Shown piece by piece: positions 15,618 through 58,268 of a stretch of DNA of 64,000 nt. Positions within the stretch are counted from its first letter, which is position 1; every line of letters begins with the position of its first letter. The stretch lies in the NCBI RefSeq assembly GCF_018128945.1, contig NZ_CP068393.1, forward strand, positions 620,001 to 684,000. The letters run 5' to 3'. The position numbers and the translations under genes were made by a program. Source of the stretch: Aristaeella hokkaidonensis. GTDB taxonomy: Bacteria; Bacillota; Clostridia; Christensenellales; Aristaeellaceae. A model generated the notes under the pieces. It worked only from the letters and a program-made list of their open reading frames with translations, ran no database searches and was not told where the DNA came from.

Positions 15618-17738
15618 ATGAAGAAATGGATTGCTCTTCTTCTGAGTCTGGTGATGATCATGAGCGTCATGAACATTGCCGTGGCCCAGGAACCGCTGAC
15701 TGCTACAGTGGCAGGTTTCGGCGGAGACGTAACAGTGACCGTTGAGGTGGATGGCGAAGGCAAGATCGTCTCCATCGCTGCGGACGGATCTACACAGACG
15801 CCTGATGTAGGCGGCAAAGCGGCCAATGACCTGAACGAGGGTGTGCTGGCTGGACTGGCTGGCACAGAACTGGCTGAACTGGACGCTGCCGGAATCGAAG
15901 GAATCACCGGCGCGACCGTGACCTCTGAAGCGATCAAGACCGCTCTGGAGATGATCAAGGCAGAAGCTACCGGAGCGGAAGCGGCTCCTGTGCAGGACGG
16001 CACCTACACCGTGACTGTGCCCGCTTATTCCGTGACCGAGCAGATGACGCTGAACATCACCTTCGAAGGCGGAAAGTTGACCAAGATTGAGACCGTGACC
16101 GCGGGCAACACCCCCGTGATCTTTGCCACGGTTGAAGAGAACCTGTATCCCCGGCTGATCGAAAACCAGAGCCTGGAAACCGACGTGATCACCGGCGCGA
16201 CCGTTGCTTCCGGTGCTGTGAAGCAGGCAGTTGAAAAGGCAATCGAGATGGCAGGCGGAAGCGTTGCGGACTGGCACAAGCCCGTGGCAAAGTCTGACGC
16301 TGTTGTCGAGCTGAACGACTATGACGTGATCGTGGTCGGCCTCGGCGGCGCCGGCATGACGGCTTACCTGTCCGCTGCGGAGAGCGGCGCGACCGTGTTC
16401 GGTATTGAAAAGGCTGCCAAGGTTGGCGGCAACTCCACCAATACTTCCGGCCCCATGGCCATCAACCCGCCGTCCCGCGTGGAAGCCAACGGCGGCCAGA
16501 TTGTTCCTCCGGAAGAACTACTGGCTGACTGGGCTGAGTACACCACCATCGACGGACAGCAGGATGCCAAGCTGGACGTGGTTGAGATGTTCATCAACAA
16601 CTCCGGCGAAACCCTGGACTGGATGGAAAAGTATTCCTTCCAGTTCGGCGATGAGATGAAAGCCTTCTTCCATCCCGCCGGATGGAAGGTCTGGACTTCC
16701 TACGCGGGCAAAGACGGCAAAACCAAGGATGAAGCTTATGTGGAAGCCATGGAAGCCGCCAAGGCCATGAACGAAAAGAACGACTACAAGCTGGAGCTGA
16801 CCGCGACCGAGCTGCTGGTGGAAGACGGCAAGGTGGCTGGTGTGAAGGCGGTTGCTGCTGACGGCACCACATACCTGGTACACGGCAAGAGCGTGATTCT
16901 GGCTACCGGTGGTTTCATTGGCGATGAGGAACTGTCCAACGAATACATCCACGGTGTGTGGAGAACCGAAGCTATGACCCAGTGCGATGGCGCGGGTATC
17001 AAGATGGCCCAGAACGCTGTGAACGCGAACCTGTACAACCTGGACGTTGTGCCGGTATCCCACATTGCGCAGGTTTACAACATCGTCCGCAACGATGACC
17101 TGACCGCTGACCAGAAGGCCATCCTGACCTCCCTGGCGCTGGATAAGGCCTATCCCGTGGTGGGCGAGGACGGCGTGAAGGTGAACGATAAGATCGGCAT
17201 GTTCTTCGCGTTTGACGTATGGGCAGCCGGCCCCACCTACTACGTGATCTACTCTGAGAACGAGATGAACGGCTTCAAGGAGAACGGCCTGGCCGCTGCG
17301 AACACTCCCATGTTCCTGGCCCAGGGCGGTACTGTGGAAGCCGGCGTGCCGGTGGCTGACCTGGATCAGATCCTGAGCGTGGGCGAAGCTTACGGCGATG
17401 TGTTCAAGGCTGACTCCCTGGCGGCCCTGGCTGACCAGCTGGGCCTGGAGAAACTGACCGAGAACGTGGAAGACCAGGGTGGCGCCTACTACGCCATCAA
17501 GGGTGCTTCTTACGTATACTCCACCTGCGGCGGCGTGGAAGTAGACACCAACCTGAACGTTGTGGACGTGGACGGCAACCCCGTGTCCGGCCTCTACGCT
17601 GTTGGTAATGATTCCCTGGGCGTGCTGCTTGCTTCTGAAAAGGCTTATGTGACCTACGGCGGCGCTGCTGCCGGCTGGGCACTGACCAGCGGACGGCTTG
17701 CCGGCGCTTACGCTACTGCGTATGCCAAGGGAGAGTAA
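15618..17738 (+). CDS. Secreted flavoprotein reductase: two FMN-binding domains plus FAD domain
   Basis: 706 residues. Signal peptide 1-23 (VMNIAVAQ). Two FMN_bind domains follow, each ending in a motif like those flavinylated by ApbE: ITGAT at 96-100 and 191-195, where the last Thr would carry FMN. From about 235 comes a fumarate-reductase-type FAD domain with the dinucleotide fold (DVIVVGLGGAG), GGNS near 412 of the gene product's FAD pocket, and a C-terminal GLYAVGNDSLG. This resembles the extracellular flavin-linked reductases gut anaerobes use to respire organic acceptors. Where fumarate and urocanate reductases have an Arg-containing NRLGG-like segment, this one reads SEKAYVTYGG, so the acceptor is probably different. 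No heme motifs. Own promoter and terminator; GC-rich third codon positions suggest high expression. Confidence 0.85.
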   Translation: MKKWIALLLSLVMIMSVMNIAVAQEPLTATVAGFGGDVTVTVEVDGEGKIVSIAADGSTQTPDVGGKAANDLNEGVLAGLAGTELAELDAAGIEGITGATVTSEAIKTALEMIKAEATGAEAAPVQDGTYTVTVPAYSVTEQMTLNITFEGGKLTKIETVTAGNTPVIFATVEENLYPRLIENQSLETDVITGATVASGAVKQAVEKAIEMAGGSVADWHKPVAKSDAVVELNDYDVIVVGLGGAGMTAYLSAAESGATVFGIEKAAKVGGNSTNTSGPMAINPPSRVEANGGQIVPPEELLADWAEYTTIDGQQDAKLDVVEMFINNSGETLDWMEKYSFQFGDEMKAFFHPAGWKVWTSYAGKDGKTKDEAYVEAMEAAKAMNEKNDYKLELTATELLVEDGKVAGVKAVAADGTTYLVHGKSVILATGGFIGDEELSNEYIHGVWRTEAMTQCDGAGIKMAQNAVNANLYNLDVVPVSHIAQVYNIVRNDDLTADQKAILTSLALDKAYPVVGEDGVKVNDKIGMFFAFDVWAAGPTYYVIYSENEMNGFKENGLAAANTPMFLAQGGTVEAGVPVADLDQILSVGEAYGDVFKADSLAALADQLGLEKLTENVEDQGGAYYAIKGASYVYSTCGGVEVDTNLNVVDVDGNPVSGLYAVGNDSLGVLLASEKAYVTYGGAAAGWALTSGRLAGAYATAYAKGE

Positions 17739-17883: not shown

Positions 17884-18177
17884 TTACCATGTGCATATTT
17901 CTTTAACAGGAACCGGGTTGGAATAGATTTTCTTAACTTCACCGCATTTGGTACACAGAGAAATCGTTTCTGTTACTGTTGCTGTTATGACTTTATGAAA
18001 GTGAGGTTTAGTTATACCGTTATAACAATCACCGTTACATACTCTATAGTATTCGTATTTCATGGTTTTCCTGAGAGTAGATACCGTGAACCAGTTATGC
18101 TGGCATGTGGCGAGAGCAGTACCAATCATTGATATCAGAAGGATAACCGCAAGGATCAATCCAATTGTTCTTTTCAT
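17884..18177 (-). CDS. Agr-linked secreted Cys/His-rich protein 4
   Basis: 97 residues with signal peptide (MKRTIGLILAVILLIS, then TALAT) and a mature part of about 73. It keeps the family pattern in modified form: CQHNWFTV at the mature N-terminus, C..DC mid-protein, H-x-H (PHFH), then CTKCG and a last Cys. It is the most divergent of four tandem paralogues and has a good AGGAGG site. Last gene before the terminator at 17824. Family function unknown; see the paralogue at 18582 for the shared pattern. Confidence 0.72.
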   Translation of the reverse strand: MKRTIGLILAVILLISMIGTALATCQHNWFTVSTLRKTMKYEYYRVCNGDCYNGITKPHFHKVITATVTETISLCTKCGEVKKIYSNPVPVKEICTW

Positions 18178-18206
18178 TAAGAAATACCTCCTAAGCAGTG
18201 ATTAAA

Positions 18207-18491
18207 TCATGCCAGAGGGCACTGTTCGGTAGTTTTGCGAATAATAACCCTCCTTGTTTGCCCACACCCCTTACTGCAATTTTGGATCTGTGTGGTTTCA
18301 TACACATGTTGTATGTGTGTATGAGGGGCTGCAGAATGAACGCATCCAGCTGGTCTGGTAGTTGTAAACTTTTTGATGAGCTTTGTGTAAGTGTGTACAT
18401 TATACCAAGTGTGATTACAAGCGGCAAAAGCTGTGACAGCAATAAAGACAAGCAGGATGGCAACAAGAAATAAAGCTGTGACTTTTTTCAT
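18207..18491 (-). CDS. Agr-linked secreted Cys/His-rich protein 3
   Basis: 94 residues; signal peptide ends near TAFA, mature start ACNHTWYNV. Pattern C-x-H-x-W, then GCVH, PHTH, CSKGCG and a C-terminal Cys, the same order and nearly the same spacing as the paralogue at 18582. Five Cys and about six His in about 70 residues suit zinc binding or disulfides. AGGAGGG precedes the ATG. A 13-bp hairpin in the 90-bp gap upstream could set its expression apart from the two genes before it. Confidence 0.75.
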   Translation of the reverse strand: MKKVTALFLVAILLVFIAVTAFAACNHTWYNVHTYTKLIKKFTTTRPAGCVHSAAPHTHIQHVYETTQIQNCSKGCGQTRRVIIRKTTEQCPLA

Positions 18492-18529
18492 GATAATATC
18501 CCTCCTGAATGAATTGATTGGTTATACTA

Positions 18530-18559
18530 ACAGCTGTGGCTGCAAGCAGCCACAGCTGT
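18530..18559 (-). promoter_or_regulatory. Intercistronic hairpin in the secreted-protein operon
   Basis: ACAGCTGTGGCTG / CAGCCACAGCTGT, 13-bp perfect arms with a 4-nt loop, no T tract on the transcribed strand. Probably an RNA-stability or processing element. Confidence 0.55.
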
Positions 18560-18581
18560 GATGGAAACATAATCTATCGGA

Positions 18582-18866
18582 TTAGTGCTTAGGGCACTTC
18601 TCTTCAGTGACGGTATAGGTATCCACATAAGTTTTGCCGCAACCCTTGCTGCACACAAAACGCTGCGTAACCTCATATTTATATCTTGTATGAGTATGAG
18701 GATTGGACAGGTGGATACATCCATGCTGATACGCGACAGTGGTCTTGCTGATAAGCCTTTTGCTAACGCTTACTGTGTACCAGCTGTGGTTGCAGGCCGC
18801 GAAAGCGACTGCTGCGATGGACAGGATCATGATGGCAACGAGAACCAGAGCGATGGACTTCTTCAT
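18582..18866 (-). CDS. Agr-linked secreted Cys/His-rich protein 2
   Basis: 94 residues. Signal peptide MKKSIALVLVAIMILSIA then VAFA; the mature protein starts ACNHSWYTV. Conserved positions across the four paralogues: C-x-H-x-W/F, G-C-x-H/C, H-x-H (PHTH), C-x2-CG (CSKGCG) and one Cys near the C-terminus. This could make one small zinc-binding or disulfide-linked domain. There is no bacteriocin leader (no double-Gly site), no membrane anchor and no wall-sorting motif. AGGAGG precedes the start. It lies in the same direction as, and downstream of, the agr genes. Confidence 0.78.
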   Translation of the reverse strand: MKKSIALVLVAIMILSIAAVAFAACNHSWYTVSVSKRLISKTTVAYQHGCIHLSNPHTHTRYKYEVTQRFVCSKGCGKTYVDTYTVTEEKCPKH

Positions 18867-18884
18867 TGTTTCTTCCTCCTTTTT

Positions 18885-19199
18885 TTATATATTTTGATTG
18901 AATAAGTCCCGAAGTGAATGGGAATAGGGGCAGTACTTATTGACTGAGTCTTCATACCATTCAGTCATTGTTGCCTGACCACAGGCACATTTATATGTTT
19001 TTGTAACAAGGGCTGTGTAATGGGTATGAGCATAAGTACAATTATGACAACCTGCAACACGAGTCGCACCTTTCCAGGCGTTACTGACCTGGGTGCTGGT
19101 CAGGATTGTGAAACTATGCTCATGTGCGGCTGCCAGACAGGTGGCAGCGATTGTCAAAAGCAGGACGACAACCATAACTATAGAAATCGTTTTTTTCAT
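18885..19199 (-). CDS. Agr-linked secreted Cys/His-rich protein 1
   Basis: 104 residues. Signal peptide ends near CLAA; the mature start reads AHEHSFTI, where the first family Cys is replaced. GCHNC, AHTH and CACG follow, then a longer C-terminal tail after YCPYSHS. It starts only 13 bp after the stop of the autoinducer precursor gene, with AAGAGG upstream, so it must be co-transcribed with agrD. This spacing is the strongest evidence that the secreted family belongs to the agr system rather than lying beside it by chance. Confidence 0.78.
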   Translation of the reverse strand: MKKTISIVMVVVLLLTIAATCLAAAHEHSFTILTSTQVSNAWKGATRVAGCHNCTYAHTHYTALVTKTYKCACGQATMTEWYEDSVNKYCPYSHSLRDLFNQNI

Positions 19200-19212
19200 A
19201 GTAGTTGTCCTC

Positions 19213-19362
19213 TTAATCCTTTTCTTTCATGCAGTCCGGAACCTTCGGCTGATAGAAGCAGATTGCACAGGCGCGGGCAGCGGAAATACGGCCAAGCACC
19301 AGCGCAAACACGGAGGCTGCACCGGCCAGGTACACCAGGATAGCAGTCAGTTTCTTCTTCAT
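19213..19362 (-). CDS. agrD: AgrD-type cyclic peptide autoinducer precursor
   Basis: 49 residues from the ATG at 19362 (AGGAGG a few nt upstream). An amphipathic N-terminal helix (KKKLTAILVYLAGAASVFAL) precedes ARACAICFY and the recognition tail QPKVPDCMKEKD, matching the clostridial cyclic-lactone autoinducer pattern in which the peptide is cut just before an E/Q-P-x-x-P tail. Cysteines are at 32, 35 and 44. C32 or C35 could form the thiolactone; which one, and the ring size, cannot be settled here. It follows agrB by 54 bp. The Cys in the tail is unusual. Confidence 0.85.
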   Translation of the reverse strand: MKKKLTAILVYLAGAASVFALVLGRISAARACAICFYQPKVPDCMKEKD

Positions 19363-19416
19363 TTGTGATCTCCTCCTTTTTTTATTGCACGGAACCTGCA
19401 TTCCGCGACATACGGA

Positions 19417-20013
19417 TTAAGAGTTGGACGTTTCTGCCTTGGGGAGCTTGATTAGGCCCACAATCAGGGAAGCAGAAACGGCCGCGATGGCGCTGCTGAC
19501 GGAGAACGCCCACTGGGGACTGATATCCTGCAGCAGCAGGAACAGGACAACCATACAAAAGAACAGAATAAGCAGGCGGCTGTCTTCCTTCAGCTGGCTT
19601 TTCTGCCTCCTGCTAAGGGGCTTATTTTCCGTGCCTACGGGTGCCAGCAGGAAAACCGTAATCCCGGAGAATATGGCAAACACAGCAGCCACAGCAGACA
19701 GCACGCTGGCAGAGATTAATGCAGCTATGAGCCTGTATAAAAGAAAAGTGCCGACTGTGCCCGCAAAACAGGCCAGGTGGCTGTCCGCGTGATAGCCGCC
19801 GACTGTGTTTTTCAGCAAGGCAAAAACCAGCATAAAACAAACCGCTTGTGCCAGAAACCCGGTCACCAGACCGATCAGCACAACAGAAAAGATATTCAGT
19901 ACAGAAGAAAGCAGGATCTCATAGCAATAGTCATACTTCTCACGATCCTGCTCACTAATAACCCCGTTGGAGATACAAAAGGATGATATCCTTTTTGCCT
20001 GAGACGCCAGCAT
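19417..20013 (-). CDS. agrB: AgrB-like autoinducer-processing membrane peptidase
   Basis: 198 residues. The ATG at 20013 has AGGTGA 7 nt upstream; the in-frame ATG at 20043 has none. Catalytic His75 (GGYHAD) and Cys82 (LACF) are nearly at the positions of S. aureus AgrB His77 and Cys84. Several hydrophobic segments follow (about 37-68, 85-125, 150-185). It should cut the AgrD precursor and form the thiolactone. Gene order agrA-agrC-agrB-agrD differs from staphylococcal agrBDCA but occurs in Clostridia. Confidence 0.92.
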   Translation of the reverse strand: MLASQAKRISSFCISNGVISEQDREKYDYCYEILLSSVLNIFSVVLIGLVTGFLAQAVCFMLVFALLKNTVGGYHADSHLACFAGTVGTFLLYRLIAALISASVLSAVAAVFAIFSGITVFLLAPVGTENKPLSRRQKSQLKEDSRLLILFFCMVVLFLLLQDISPQWAFSVSSAIAAVSASLIVGLIKLPKAETSNS

Positions 20014-20106
20014 TTTTTCATCACCTGCAAAAAGAGATATCATCTTAGAGTTTTTAATTCAATTGTTTATGCAAAAGTGGTCGCTTAATCTGCAATTATG
20101 GTTCAG

Positions 20107-21405
20107 TTATGCGTCCTGAAGAATGAGGTATGCAGTGAATTCATGATCAGTGGAACGGAAGGTGCAATTTCCCTGATATTTGGCAGCAATTTCGTTCACA
20201 CTGCTCAGGCCGAAACCATGCAGCTCCTTCTGGATCTTGGTGGTGCGGATTGTCTTTCCATTCACTTTTACCGCATGGGCTGCCGCGTTAGTGATAGTAA
20301 TACTAAGCCAGAGTTCCTGCTGGGTTATGGTCAGGGAGACAAAGCGTTTGTCGGGATCCACCTTTTCATTGGCCTCAATCGCGTTATCCAGCAGATTGCC
20401 CAGAAGGACGCACAGATCCAGTGGATCAAAGGAAGTTTCAGGGGCTATATGCACAGACTGCTCATAACGGATGCCGTGGAGCTCCATCTGCTGCTTCTTG
20501 CTGAAGATCAGGGAGTCCACTGCGTCGATGCCGGTGACGGTCATGGGGGAGGCGGCAAAGATTTTACCGGAGATGCTCTCCATGATTTCCCGGGTTTTAT
20601 CTGAGTCTGTTTTCATGGCTTCGGAGAGGGCAAACATCTGGTTTTTCAAATCATGCATGGTTTTGTTACTGATCTGCTGGCGCTCAGCCAGTTCACGATA
20701 AAAGGCGATCTGGCCTTCAGTCTGCTTCTGTACCAAACGCATACGGTTCTTTTCATTTTCCTCACGTTGGTGGTATTCGAGCAGGAAAAACAGTCCAACA
20801 TTGGAGAAGGCAAGAAGAATCACTGCACAGGTTGCAGGCATTGCATTAGACGTGGAGACTTCTGTAAGATTATATATGCCCAAAATATAGATTAATACGC
20901 TGGATGCAATTGGGAGCATGAGCAAAGGGACCATCAGATAACTGGGGACTTTTTCACCATAGGAAGGTACGATGAACTGGATAAGCCTGAGCAGGGCAAA
21001 TAGTACCATTTTGGATACCAGTATACCGCTGGTAAAGAACAGGATATTATCACGCCCATCAGTGGAATTAAGCCCCGTCAGCGAGAAAAGTACTATACTA
21101 ACCAGTATTTCCGAGAACAGAATCATGATAAACATAATAGGGACGAAAATAAGAGTTTTTATCATGGAAGTGTTATACACAAGCGCAATGGCTGTAATTG
21201 TAACAACCGTAGCGGAAAGTGTTATATAGGGGATATTAAGCTGAAAGTAAAGAATTGTCCTGACTATTGAACAAATGGAGCATACCAATATCATGTTTCG
21301 GGATGATTTCAGCTTGTTGCCGGAAACAGTACGAAAGTAAGAAATGATAACGAGTGCTTCCATGAGGTTTCCCATCAAATCATTAAAATAGAACATCCAG
21401 CTCAT
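20107..21405 (-). CDS. agrC: AgrC-like sensor histidine kinase (HPK10/GHKL)
   Basis: 432 residues. Six or seven hydrophobic segments in residues 5-210 form the peptide sensor. A linker coiled coil (EENEKNRMRLVQKQTEGQ) leads to the phospho-acceptor His251 in TMHDLKNQM, where HDxxN is the HPK10 hallmark. GHKL ATPase boxes are clear: LLGNLLDNAIEA (Asn341) and HGFGLSSVNE. Its start overlaps the stop of the response regulator by 4 bp, so translation is probably coupled. The ligand is presumably the peptide encoded at 19213. Confidence 0.92.
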   Translation of the reverse strand: MSWMFYFNDLMGNLMEALVIISYFRTVSGNKLKSSRNMILVCSICSIVRTILYFQLNIPYITLSATVVTITAIALVYNTSMIKTLIFVPIMFIMILFSEILVSIVLFSLTGLNSTDGRDNILFFTSGILVSKMVLFALLRLIQFIVPSYGEKVPSYLMVPLLMLPIASSVLIYILGIYNLTEVSTSNAMPATCAVILLAFSNVGLFFLLEYHQREENEKNRMRLVQKQTEGQIAFYRELAERQQISNKTMHDLKNQMFALSEAMKTDSDKTREIMESISGKIFAASPMTVTGIDAVDSLIFSKKQQMELHGIRYEQSVHIAPETSFDPLDLCVLLGNLLDNAIEANEKVDPDKRFVSLTITQQELWLSITITNAAAHAVKVNGKTIRTTKIQKELHGFGLSSVNEIAAKYQGNCTFRSTDHEFTAYLILQDA

Positions 21406-22109
21406 ATCAGTTTCCCCGCCATATACAGATTGAAGTCGCTCATCAGGTTGGTATAATGCCGCCGGCTGACCGGTACTTCCGTTCCATTATCCAGTTTCAC
21501 TGATGATTTGGTGATGCTGACAACACGGCTCATGTTGACGATGAATCCCTGGTGACATTGGGCAAAGCCAAAGGGCCTGAGCTTGGCATATTCTTCCTGG
21601 AGCTTGCCCACACACTCGTAATCCTCGTCTGAGGTATGGACAAAAACATGACGGTGGTAGGCTTCCAGGTAGAGAATACTGCGGTATTCCAGCATGTTGC
21701 TGGTGTTGCGCCATTTGATCAGGTAACGACGGCGGCGGTTTTTCCACACACGGAGGGCACGCTCAAAATCCTTCCGGAAATCTTCTTCCTGGACAGGCTT
21801 GAGGAGAAACTGGAACGCATCCTGGCGGAACGCGTCCGAGACATAGCTGACATGGCTGGTAACAAAGATGACGATCATATCCCGCTGGAGCTTCCGGAGC
21901 CGCTTGCCGGTTTCAATGCCAGAGAGTCCGTCCATCTCAATGTCCAGAAAGACAATATCCCAGGACTTGCCTTCCTCACAGGAAACAAGAAGATCTTCGC
22001 CGCGGCTGAATTCCGCAATATCCAGATTGTTGGAAACAATGTAGGGGGTTAACAGTTCCTTCAGTTTCTCCCGGTATTCGGGAAGATCATCACAAACGGC
22101 TATATTCAT
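21402..22109 (-). CDS. agrA: AgrA-like LytTR response regulator
   Basis: 235 residues from ATG 22109 (MNIAVCDD; AGGGGTG about 10 nt upstream). Receiver domain about 1-120 with acidic pocket CDD, phospho-site Asp56 (VFLDIEMDG), Thr (FVTSH) and Lys (LLKPV). A LytTR DNA-binding domain fills about 135-230 (LEAYHRHVFVHT, FGFAQCHQGFIVNM). First gene of the minus-strand operon; likely activates its own operon and therefore the four secreted-protein genes. Confidence 0.92.
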   Translation of the reverse strand: MNIAVCDDLPEYREKLKELLTPYIVSNNLDIAEFSRGEDLLVSCEEGKSWDIVFLDIEMDGLSGIETGKRLRKLQRDMIVIFVTSHVSYVSDAFRQDAFQFLLKPVQEEDFRKDFERALRVWKNRRRRYLIKWRNTSNMLEYRSILYLEAYHRHVFVHTSDEDYECVGKLQEEYAKLRPFGFAQCHQGFIVNMSRVVSITKSSVKLDNGTEVPVSRRHYTNLMSDFNLYMAGKLI

Positions 22110-22169
22110 AGAGTAATCACACCCCTGTCCGTATGTTTTGCCTCGTCCGAAGACCGCTGGTCTCTGCAA

Positions 22170-22234
22170 CAAGTATATCATATTTTACAAAAATCATAAA
22201 CGTCCGTACTGATTTTATCTTGTATACTTTACAA
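22170..22234 (-). promoter_or_regulatory. Candidate control region of the agr operon
   Basis: On the minus strand, two related AT-rich words, TTGTAAAGTATACAAG (22219-22234) and TGTAAAATATGATATACTTG (22170-22189), lie 40-100 bp upstream of agrA. The second includes a TATACT that could be a -10. The pair could be a LytTR regulator site, but no match to a proven consensus is claimed. Confidence 0.35.
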
Positions 22235-22339
22235 ACAGAACAGCCCTGAAACGGCTGCAAGCATTGAATAGTAAGCGCTTGAGAAAGAATAGGGAAGGCT
22301 GCCCCGTGGAAAGATAATCAACAGAAGAAAAACACATTG

Positions 22340-23491: not shown

Positions 23492-23595
23492 GCCAATTGT
23501 GCAGTTTAATGAACCAGTTGTGCAGGTTCTGTTGTAATGAAGGGCTCTGGTGCGTATGGTATTCATAATTATATGCGCATAAAGGAGTCATAGGT

Positions 23596-24099
23596 ATGAA
23601 AGAAAAAAGAATTATCCTTTTCGCGGTCATTGCGGTTATCATTGCGACGCTGCTGTATGTTGTTTTTGCTTATACTGAGCATGATCATGACCATGATCAC
23701 AATCATGAACCTGGCAGGATTGATATTGAACAGGCTATTACCGATGAAGAACATGGCTATGTGACGGAATGTTCGTTCACATATGAACTGCCCCATGAAG
23801 GAGACCACGAGATTGATATCATCGTTACCGAGAAAACCAGGATTATTGTGGAAAGCATGGAGAGCGACAACCCATGCATGATGACCCTGGCCAAGGACGG
23901 GAATAATATCTGGACTGAGCAGATGGTGGAAGGGAAGGAAATGGGCCCGGGAATCGGAGAGGGCGAGTATAAGCTGCTGATGGAGTATAGTCAGGGCAAA
24001 GGCAAAGGAAAAGTCGTAATTGATGACGGAGAAGAACACGAGCATGAAGAACATGATCACGATCATGACCATGAAGATCATGAACATGATCATGAATGA
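23596..24099 (+). CDS. Membrane-anchored histidine-rich (metal-binding) protein
   Basis: 167 residues. One N-terminal membrane helix (7-25) without a clear cleavage site, followed at once by HDHDHDHNH (29-37). A predicted beta-sandwich core (about 45-135) follows, then an acidic C-terminus with alternating His, Asp and Glu (HEHEEHDHDHDHEDHEHDHE). The two His-rich ends on the outer face suggest Zn, Ni or Co binding or buffering. No metal transporter lies nearby. AAGGAG is well placed upstream. The His/Asp repeats are coded by simple CATGATCA-like repeats, which could change length by slippage. Specific metal unknown. Confidence 0.7.
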   Translation: MKEKRIILFAVIAVIIATLLYVVFAYTEHDHDHDHNHEPGRIDIEQAITDEEHGYVTECSFTYELPHEGDHEIDIIVTEKTRIIVESMESDNPCMMTLAKDGNNIWTEQMVEGKEMGPGIGEGEYKLLMEYSQGKGKGKVVIDDGEEHEHEEHDHDHDHEDHEHDHE

Positions 24100-24195
24100 A
24101 ATATTGACTTCGTCAATGTGAAATAAAGCCGCAAAGCGGCTTTGTGAAATGTCGCTTACGCGACATGAAATATGCGGTTCATAACCGCATATGAA
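24095..24195 (+). repeat. Hairpin array 4
   Basis: Four palindromes: ATTGAC/GTCAAT, AAAGCCGC/GCGGCTTT, TGTCGC/GCGACA and TATGCGGTT/AACCGCATA, joined by GTGAAATA or ATGAAATA. It begins at the stop of the His-rich gene. Confidence 0.92.
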
Positions 24196-58084: not shown

Positions 58085-58088
58085 AGGA

Positions 58089-58167
58089 AATGAAATAAAT
58101 CAGCTGCGCTGATTTGTGAAATATTTGACTTCGTCAAATGTGAAATATTCGGCTTTGCCGGATGAGA
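58089..58167 (+). repeat. Hairpin array 8
   Basis: AAATCAGC/GCTGATTT (same stem as in array 6), ATTTGAC/GTCAAAT and an imperfect TTCGGC/GCCGGA, with GTGAAATA linkers. Confidence 0.9.
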
Positions 58168-58268
58168 ATTTTTACCCGGAATTAAAGGTATCTGCGCAGT
58201 TGATACCGAATTGTTTATAAGAAGCTAAGAAGCCTGTCGTTTCGCATAATAAGTTATAAACATTCCTG

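Follow-up and report, generated by a model that had tools for sequence, protein, structure and literature searches.

The window analysed here, a 64-kb stretch of DNA covering bases 620001-684000 of the single-contig 3.39-Mb genome of Aristaeella hokkaidonensis (G000 in our comparisons), contains an Agr quorum-sensing locus. We consider it probable that this locus carries its own effector cargo, a regulon of secreted metal-binding miniproteins driven by a conserved direct repeat that we term the agr box. On the minus strand, agrA, agrC, agrB and agrD are followed by four genes for small Cys/His-rich peptides (pepA, pepB, pepC and pepD), and same-strand genes of this family stand behind agrD in five of the five genomes of the genus in which the family was found. 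For the Agr system this means a concrete and testable output, an unnamed, putatively secreted family right behind the signal gene, and a single DNA box yields a short list of candidate co-controlled genes. As the box lies before agrB, beside the locus's own agrC and agrA, the question of control becomes directly testable. Neither Agr loci nor VirR boxes are new, and the accessible text of PMC10301443 describes an effector next to Agr. Within the libraries and literature searched, the Cys/His family, its place behind agrD and the two-array regulon are new; none of the publication titles searched, a scope that mostly excludes subscription literature, concerned the Cys/His family.

The signalling genes are readily assigned. 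agrA (21402-22109, on the minus strand like the whole operon) encodes a response regulator with REC and LytTR domains (PF00072, E 3.9e-19; PF04397, E 5.3e-20; both over their cut-offs), which, at 42 bits where the cut-off is 400, lies outside the narrower NCBIfam AgrA equivalog. agrC (20107-21405) encodes a sensor histidine kinase (HATPase_c_5, PF14501, E 2.6e-24, over the cut-off), so that kinase and regulator share the locus with agrBD. agrB (19417-20013) encodes the processing peptidase/exporter (PF04647, E 3.7e-37, 127.9 bits against a cut-off of 23) and is the single AgrB detected in the whole genome; its reading frame opens at 20043, and we infer a translation start at the ATG at 20013 because a predicted -10 hexamer sits at 20034-20039. 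agrD (19213-19362) encodes the autoinducer precursor (TIGR04223, E 1.4e-9, 37.9 bits against a cut-off of 19). The order A-C-B-D recurs in all five family-positive genomes and does not match the usual agrBDCA order, which the available part of the source describes as 'often' found and is thus typical rather than essential (PMC10301443).

The four peptide genes continue in the same direction, as a reading made from the sequence alone (hereafter the sequence-only reading) had described, and the coordinates bear this out. pepA (18885-19199; 104 aa; H-x-H/C-x-C subtype) starts 13 bp behind agrD and is followed by pepB (18582-18866; 94 aa; C-x-H/C-x3-C subtype), pepC (18207-18491; 94 aa; 51% identical to pepB) and pepD (17884-18177; 97 aa; 30% identical to pepB), the last gene of the operon. 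The remaining gaps measure 54 bp (agrB-agrD), 18 bp (pepA-pepB), 90 bp (pepB-pepC) and 29 bp (pepC-pepD), and terminator prediction on the minus strand from agrB through pepD returned no terminator-like site. A perfect inverted repeat (14 + 2 + 14; 18530-18559) in the pepB-pepC gap has no T run and was not scored as terminator-like; it is possibly a hairpin for mRNA processing or stability.

Variation among the five genomes is concentrated in the signal and its sensor. AgrD is 80-94% identical, and the predicted ring differs in every genome (CAICF, CAYYF, CTYCY, CGYCF and CTYYF), that of G000 being C-A-I-C-F followed by YQPKVPDC. The sensor half of AgrC is 40-74% identical and its kinase half 76-98%, while AgrA is 86-99% identical. 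Such variation of ring and sensor beside a conserved kinase usually indicates that signal specificities are diverging. Judged from these sequences, the AgrD ring and AgrC sensor appear to vary as in pherotypes, with the peptide as the putative activator of AgrC.

The agr box and its predicted regulon

The agr box before agrB (CCATAATTGCA-N10-CCACTTTTGCA; 20070-20101, minus strand) is a direct repeat with a 21-bp period and an exact match to the consensus CCRNNNNTGCA-N10-CCANTTNTGCA. It is found before agrB and before the first gene of the main unlinked peptide array in five of five genomes, and these ten sites, the agrB site at 20070-20101 included, were used to write the pattern. All 17 exact copies found in the genus lie in the five genomes that carry the family; the other 40, many of which are incomplete assemblies, have none and show nine one-mismatch matches. 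A reversed-pattern control at up to one mismatch gave 0 matches in the five genomes and 4 across all 45. When up to two mismatches were allowed, the pattern and its control hit the five genomes about equally often (38 and 39), and therefore only exact and one-mismatch boxes were used.

Seven of the exact boxes are independent of pattern writing, although they do not amount to seven independent events, since they are orthologous between genomes. They fall into three kinds: four stand before a small-RNA-like unit upstream of the unlinked array (G000, G001, G002 and G023), two precede a His-rich gene (G000 at 23493, and G001), and one, in G008, precedes a further non-coding unit bounded by terminators. 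Behind the agrB box, at a distance of 30 bp, lies the predicted -10 hexamer TATCTC (20034-20039, minus strand), which matches TATAAT at three of six bases. A -10-like hexamer starting with TAT was present behind all 20 sites examined (17 exact and three with one mismatch), 30 bp away at 19 of them and 29 bp at one; it reads TATNNT at 15 of the 20 and TATCTC at all five agrB sites. A one-mismatch box in G008 (C48:203178) was left out of these statistics and is presumed to be a chance match because no -10 follows it.

This arrangement, a pair of repeats of about 12 bp with a period of about 21 and a fixed promoter distance across the 20 sites, has the layout of VirR/RgaR-type sites. The VirR consensus, CCAGTTNTNCAC, resembles the agr box half CCANTTNTGCA. 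In the sections of the sources available, VirR boxes are described as two imperfect 12-bp direct repeats, 7-8 nt apart, upstream of the promoter, and RgaR sites as having a critical G at -51 and -72, that is, 21 bp apart (PMC2688746, PMC2838878, PMC10602386).

The 64-kb window contains exactly two copies of the box. The second (23493-23524, plus strand) is an exact match that was not among the pattern-writing sites, and is followed by TATGGT at 23555-23560 and by a gene for a His/Asp-rich protein (23596-24099, plus strand) with an N-terminal hydrophobic anchor and the stretches HDHDHDHNH and EHDHDHDHEDHEHDHE. This protein had no Pfam match at E 0.01. The box before it is exact in G001, has one mismatch before the apparent orthologue in G002 and three mismatches in G023. 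On the strength of these sites, the His-rich anchored protein is a predicted member of the agr-box regulon, and most unlinked members of the peptide family are likewise predicted to be controlled through the box.

Some further sites were noted. In G002 an agr box lies upstream of agrA, facing the orthologue of the His-rich gene. The region upstream of agrA (22120-22240) is strongly conserved in all five genomes and is without an agr box in G000. A one-mismatch box with TATACT at the right distance occurs at G000:C1:2709603-2709634 and G023:C1:1791495-1791526, in identical surroundings (L124 and L125).

The Cys/His peptide family

With pepB as query, a search retrieved pepC (E 8.3e-25), pepD (E 2.6e-8) and pepA (E 6.0e-6), which makes the four proteins paralogues, as the sequence-only reading had held. 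Their starts look like signal peptides when judged by eye, and they are predicted to be secreted. The reading had also assigned four motifs to all of them, and here only H-x-H held throughout: pepA has H-x-H in place of C-x-H, and it has C-x-CG, C-x3-CG is found in pepB and pepC, C-x2-CG occurs in pepD only, and G-C-x-H/C is absent from pepD (DCYN) and pepA (GCHN). That no named family could be recognised agrees with the library scans, in which the four peptides had no match over curated cut-offs in Pfam and NCBIfam and none at E 0.1 in PADLOC. Matches below the cut-offs mainly span the signal peptide, for example that of ExtJ to residues 1-25 of pepB (E 1.9e-4).

Among the 45 genomes of the genus, the family is present at E 1e-6 or better in five (G000, G001, G002, G008 and G023), all of them among the 13 with a completeness of at least 90%; absences are soft, since the other 32 fall outside the quality class (at least 90% complete, 5% contamination). 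AgrB is over its cut-off in seven of the 45, of which G003 and G006 lack the family. In the five genomes, in the above order, agr-linked members number 4, 4, 4, 1 and 2 and unlinked members 5, 4, 3, 1 and 7, so that 20 of 35 family genes are unlinked (four of the 35 are divergent). In G000, a second array of five members, one of them divergent, occupies genome positions 606324-608206, about 30 kb from the agr locus; it adjoins a rhomboid-protease gene on the opposite strand and has no agr genes beside it. The proposal that the effector is built into the signalling operon therefore stands with respect to the position behind agrD, the box before agrB and the uninterrupted stretch without a terminator, but the operon does not hold all of the effector genes: all five genomes also have unlinked members.

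Across 396 genomes of the order, searched at E 1e-8 with the best 13 or fewer candidates scored per genome, a single gene in G306, a genome of another family, was the sole match beyond the genus (E 3e-9, weak, no agr nearby); a range of one genus is a lower bound. The sequence-only reading would have lost its footing had the family been widespread without agr genes. With this weak exception, it was found in genomes that all have agrB beside some of its members. In a search of 61 genomes, 14 matched; in nine of these the match did not extend past the first 29-56 model positions, and they were not counted as members. Among 5.8 billion proteins, 51 matched a full-length profile and 36 a profile of the mature part at E 0.01; all but two of the matches are 87-101 aa long and none has a precomputed Pfam domain.

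Conservation is centred on Cys and His. C50, H57 and H59 are invariant in 97 of 97 distinct members, C72 and C76 occur in 96, and C91 in 89, with His in its place in four; this count omits four divergent unlinked genes (L016, L072, L074 and L080) and two long database proteins (P0044 and P0067). Near the mature N-terminus all 97 have C-x-H (66), C-x-x-H (18) or H-x-H (13). H-x-H is paired with C-x-C in 12 of 13 members and C-x-H with C-x2-C or C-x3-C in 65 of 66, and the number of Cys residues is odd in 60 of 97. Because of these Cys-His swaps and odd counts, metal binding is favoured over disulfides, which narrows the earlier suggestion of either one: its metal half gains from the alignment, while an all-disulfide reading is disfavoured.

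The AlphaFold2 model of pepB (mean predicted local distance difference test score, pLDDT, 89.3) has three long strands (29-46, 57-72 and 79-90), and that of pepA (mean pLDDT 78.6) also has three in a similar layout. Fold searches with the pepB model, the only one so used, gave no significant relative. In such a three-stranded meander, C25, H27, C72 and C76 would be gathered at one end and C50, H57, H59 and C91 at the opposite end. As the strand order brings the conserved Cys/His positions to the two ends of the sheet, we infer two putative metal sites per mature peptide, one at each end. A C-x2-CG knuckle is shared with zinc fingers, CPxCG proteins and rubredoxins; the family differs from these in its mixed C/H pairs, its H-x-H and its predicted secretion, and profile matches were weak and not significant (best E 0.048); neither these nor the fold searches reached a solved relative at significance. 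An N-terminal X-X-His copper site (amino-terminal copper- and nickel-binding motif, ATCUN) was discarded by eye, since in most members position 3 is not His.

Proposed mechanism, alternatives and related systems

Judged by their sequences, AgrB and AgrD make the precursor of a cyclic peptide, and AgrC and AgrA are the matching two-component system; agrAC probably has its own promoter. Phosphorylated AgrA would bind the VirR/RgaR-like direct repeats between agrC and agrB, as the conserved DNA suggests, and switch on agrBD-pepABCD, so that signal and effectors would rise together. Also under the same box would be the unlinked array some 30 kb distant, the His-rich anchored protein and one or more small RNAs. 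The mature peptide would form a three-stranded sheet with a metal site at each end, most likely for zinc: site 1 would consist of the N-terminal [C/H]-x(1-2)-H and the C-x(1-3)-C, site 2 of C50, H57, H59 and C91. Outside the cell, the peptides may capture or buffer a transition metal at high density, as a shared good. The regulatory half of this mechanism, drawn from conserved DNA, is well supported and the metal-binding half moderately so; the extracellular role is the weakest step and is weakly supported. More tentatively, and with a good deal of doubt, we suggest that extracellular metal handling might be the main output of the regulon, with two arrays of two-site zinc miniproteins, the His-rich protein and an RNAIII-like small RNA carrying an anti-ribosome-binding-site stretch, so that dense cells would share or withhold metal.

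Peptides that are small, secreted and linked to quorum sensing could instead be Agr-controlled antimicrobials or toxins of a bacteriocin-like kind, whose Cys and His serve a metal- or disulfide-stabilised fold. Arms-race arrays of this sort would be in keeping with the variable array size (one to four genes at agr, one to seven elsewhere) and with a pepB protein that is identical in G000 and G001 (L014/L073) while pepC and pepD are replaced there. We nevertheless regard this explanation as unlikely, given that inspection of the operon by eye showed no gene for immunity or dedicated export and that the one NCBIfam match (E 0.029, below the cut-off) covers residues 1-44 of pepB, largely signal peptide; no named bacteriocin precursor family in NCBIfam or Pfam was over its cut-off for the four peptides. 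We find it rather improbable that the peptides are components of the surface or matrix, some with a lipid anchor, which at high density attach to cell wall or plant material. Several unlinked members do have L-A-A-C at the signal cleavage site, and a second agr locus in G023 has a secreted peptidoglycan-binding protein behind agrD. Lipobox processing, however, is not known to tolerate D or E just before the Cys, and 15 of 97 members have one of these residues in the column before the Cys place, while pepA has no Cys there. On these grounds a bacterial lipoprotein was rejected for the family overall; some members would fit a lipobox.

The peptide genes might also be mere neighbours of agr, with promoters of their own and no response to Agr, for which the gaps of up to 90 bp (pepB-pepC), and of 88 bp behind agrD in G008, leave room. 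Against this stand the identical arrangement in five of five genomes, the box that agrB and the main unlinked array have in common, and the lack of any exact box in the other 40 genomes, and we consider such chance proximity highly improbable. An Agr locus with its own cargo of metal-binding peptides remains our preferred explanation.

Parts of this arrangement are known elsewhere. Staphylococcus aureus AgrA controls the signal genes, RNAIII/delta-toxin and the multi-paralogue PSM-alpha peptides (PSM, phenol-soluble modulin), and signal genes, a regulatory RNA and paralogous secreted peptides would likewise be under AgrA here. The PSMs form amphipathic helices and are not known to carry Cys residues or signal peptides, whereas here predicted beta proteins with Cys/His and signal peptides lie behind agrBD. 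In Clostridium perfringens, as far as the available text goes, VirSR and Agr similarly combine a regulator of repeat-pair sites with small RNAs and secreted proteins as targets, and VirR does not activate agrBD (PMC10602386). Compared with VirSR, agrC and agrA here adjoin agrBD, the box precedes agrB, and the secreted targets would be an unnamed Cys/His family. The RgaSR-agrB1D1-SpoZ system of Clostridioides difficile likewise has VirR-like sites, which precede agrBD, genes for small hypothetical proteins and a small RNA; in the sections available, its kinase and regulator lie outside the agr locus and are not activated by AgrD1, and a peptide array is not described, unlike the arrangement proposed here. 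An Agr-controlled effector gene conserved beside agr is also found in the agrBDCA-CA_C0082 locus of Clostridium acetobutylicum, where, according to the accessible text, the product is LanM-like and its gene is predicted to form a separate transcription unit (PMC10301443), in contrast to the secreted peptides behind agrD in our genomes.

Small RNAs and further agr loci

Upstream of the unlinked array, at L016 (G000:C1:608.3-609.9k), L072, L080, L077 and L074, there are small-RNA-like units whose ends resemble terminators. They share a GTTTCTTCATACTCT-like stretch, which is complementary to a ribosome-binding site together with ATG AAG AAA. Some have a CiaR-type promoter, others the agr box. The CiaR-type layout, in the part of the source available, is NTTAAG-N5-TTTAAG with 10 nt to the -10 (PMC3091779). 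This pattern had 13 exact matches in nine of the 45 genomes and 0 for a reversed control, and the two matches in G000 lie no more than about 2 kb from the unlinked peptide array. Judged by these features, the units may be csRNA-like RNAs (csRNA, cia-dependent small RNA) outside streptococci. Rfam gave no match at gathering thresholds for five unlinked-cluster loci. In three genomes, the seed complement at up to two mismatches was found at the RNA gene itself in each and at one extra place in two. When duplex energies were compared with those of 42 background start regions, the flavoprotein gene adjoining the operon (15618-17738) ranked first (-35.7 kcal/mol); it is not claimed as a target, because the small RNA outpairs shuffled RNAs on background starts in general (-18.6 against -14.9).

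G023 has a second agrA-agrC-agrB-agrD locus (L081, G023:C1:492000-504000), in which a secreted PG_binding_1 protein, and not Cys/His peptides, follows agrD; no agr box was found there within three mismatches. At L082, L083 and L084, a locus with agrB, agrA and agrC in which no AgrD was recognised adjoins a thiopeptide-type precursor (PF19409, E 2.4e-9, as tested in L083), with an ABC-type ATPase gene at L082 and L083. AgrD was recognised by script in 14 of 30 surveyed loci, a resolution too partial for a rate, and three of the 14 carry the Cys/His family. Six other AgrD genes (L163 in G185; L164 and L166-L169 in G254, a genome with eight AgrD matches) precede unrelated signal-peptide-like proteins, so that agrD may be followed by secreted cargo more widely.

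Within the window, two Gut-1 RNAs (RF01706) were detected above the gathering score on the plus strand, at 24094-24176 and 58088-58173, the first of which starts where the His-rich gene ends.

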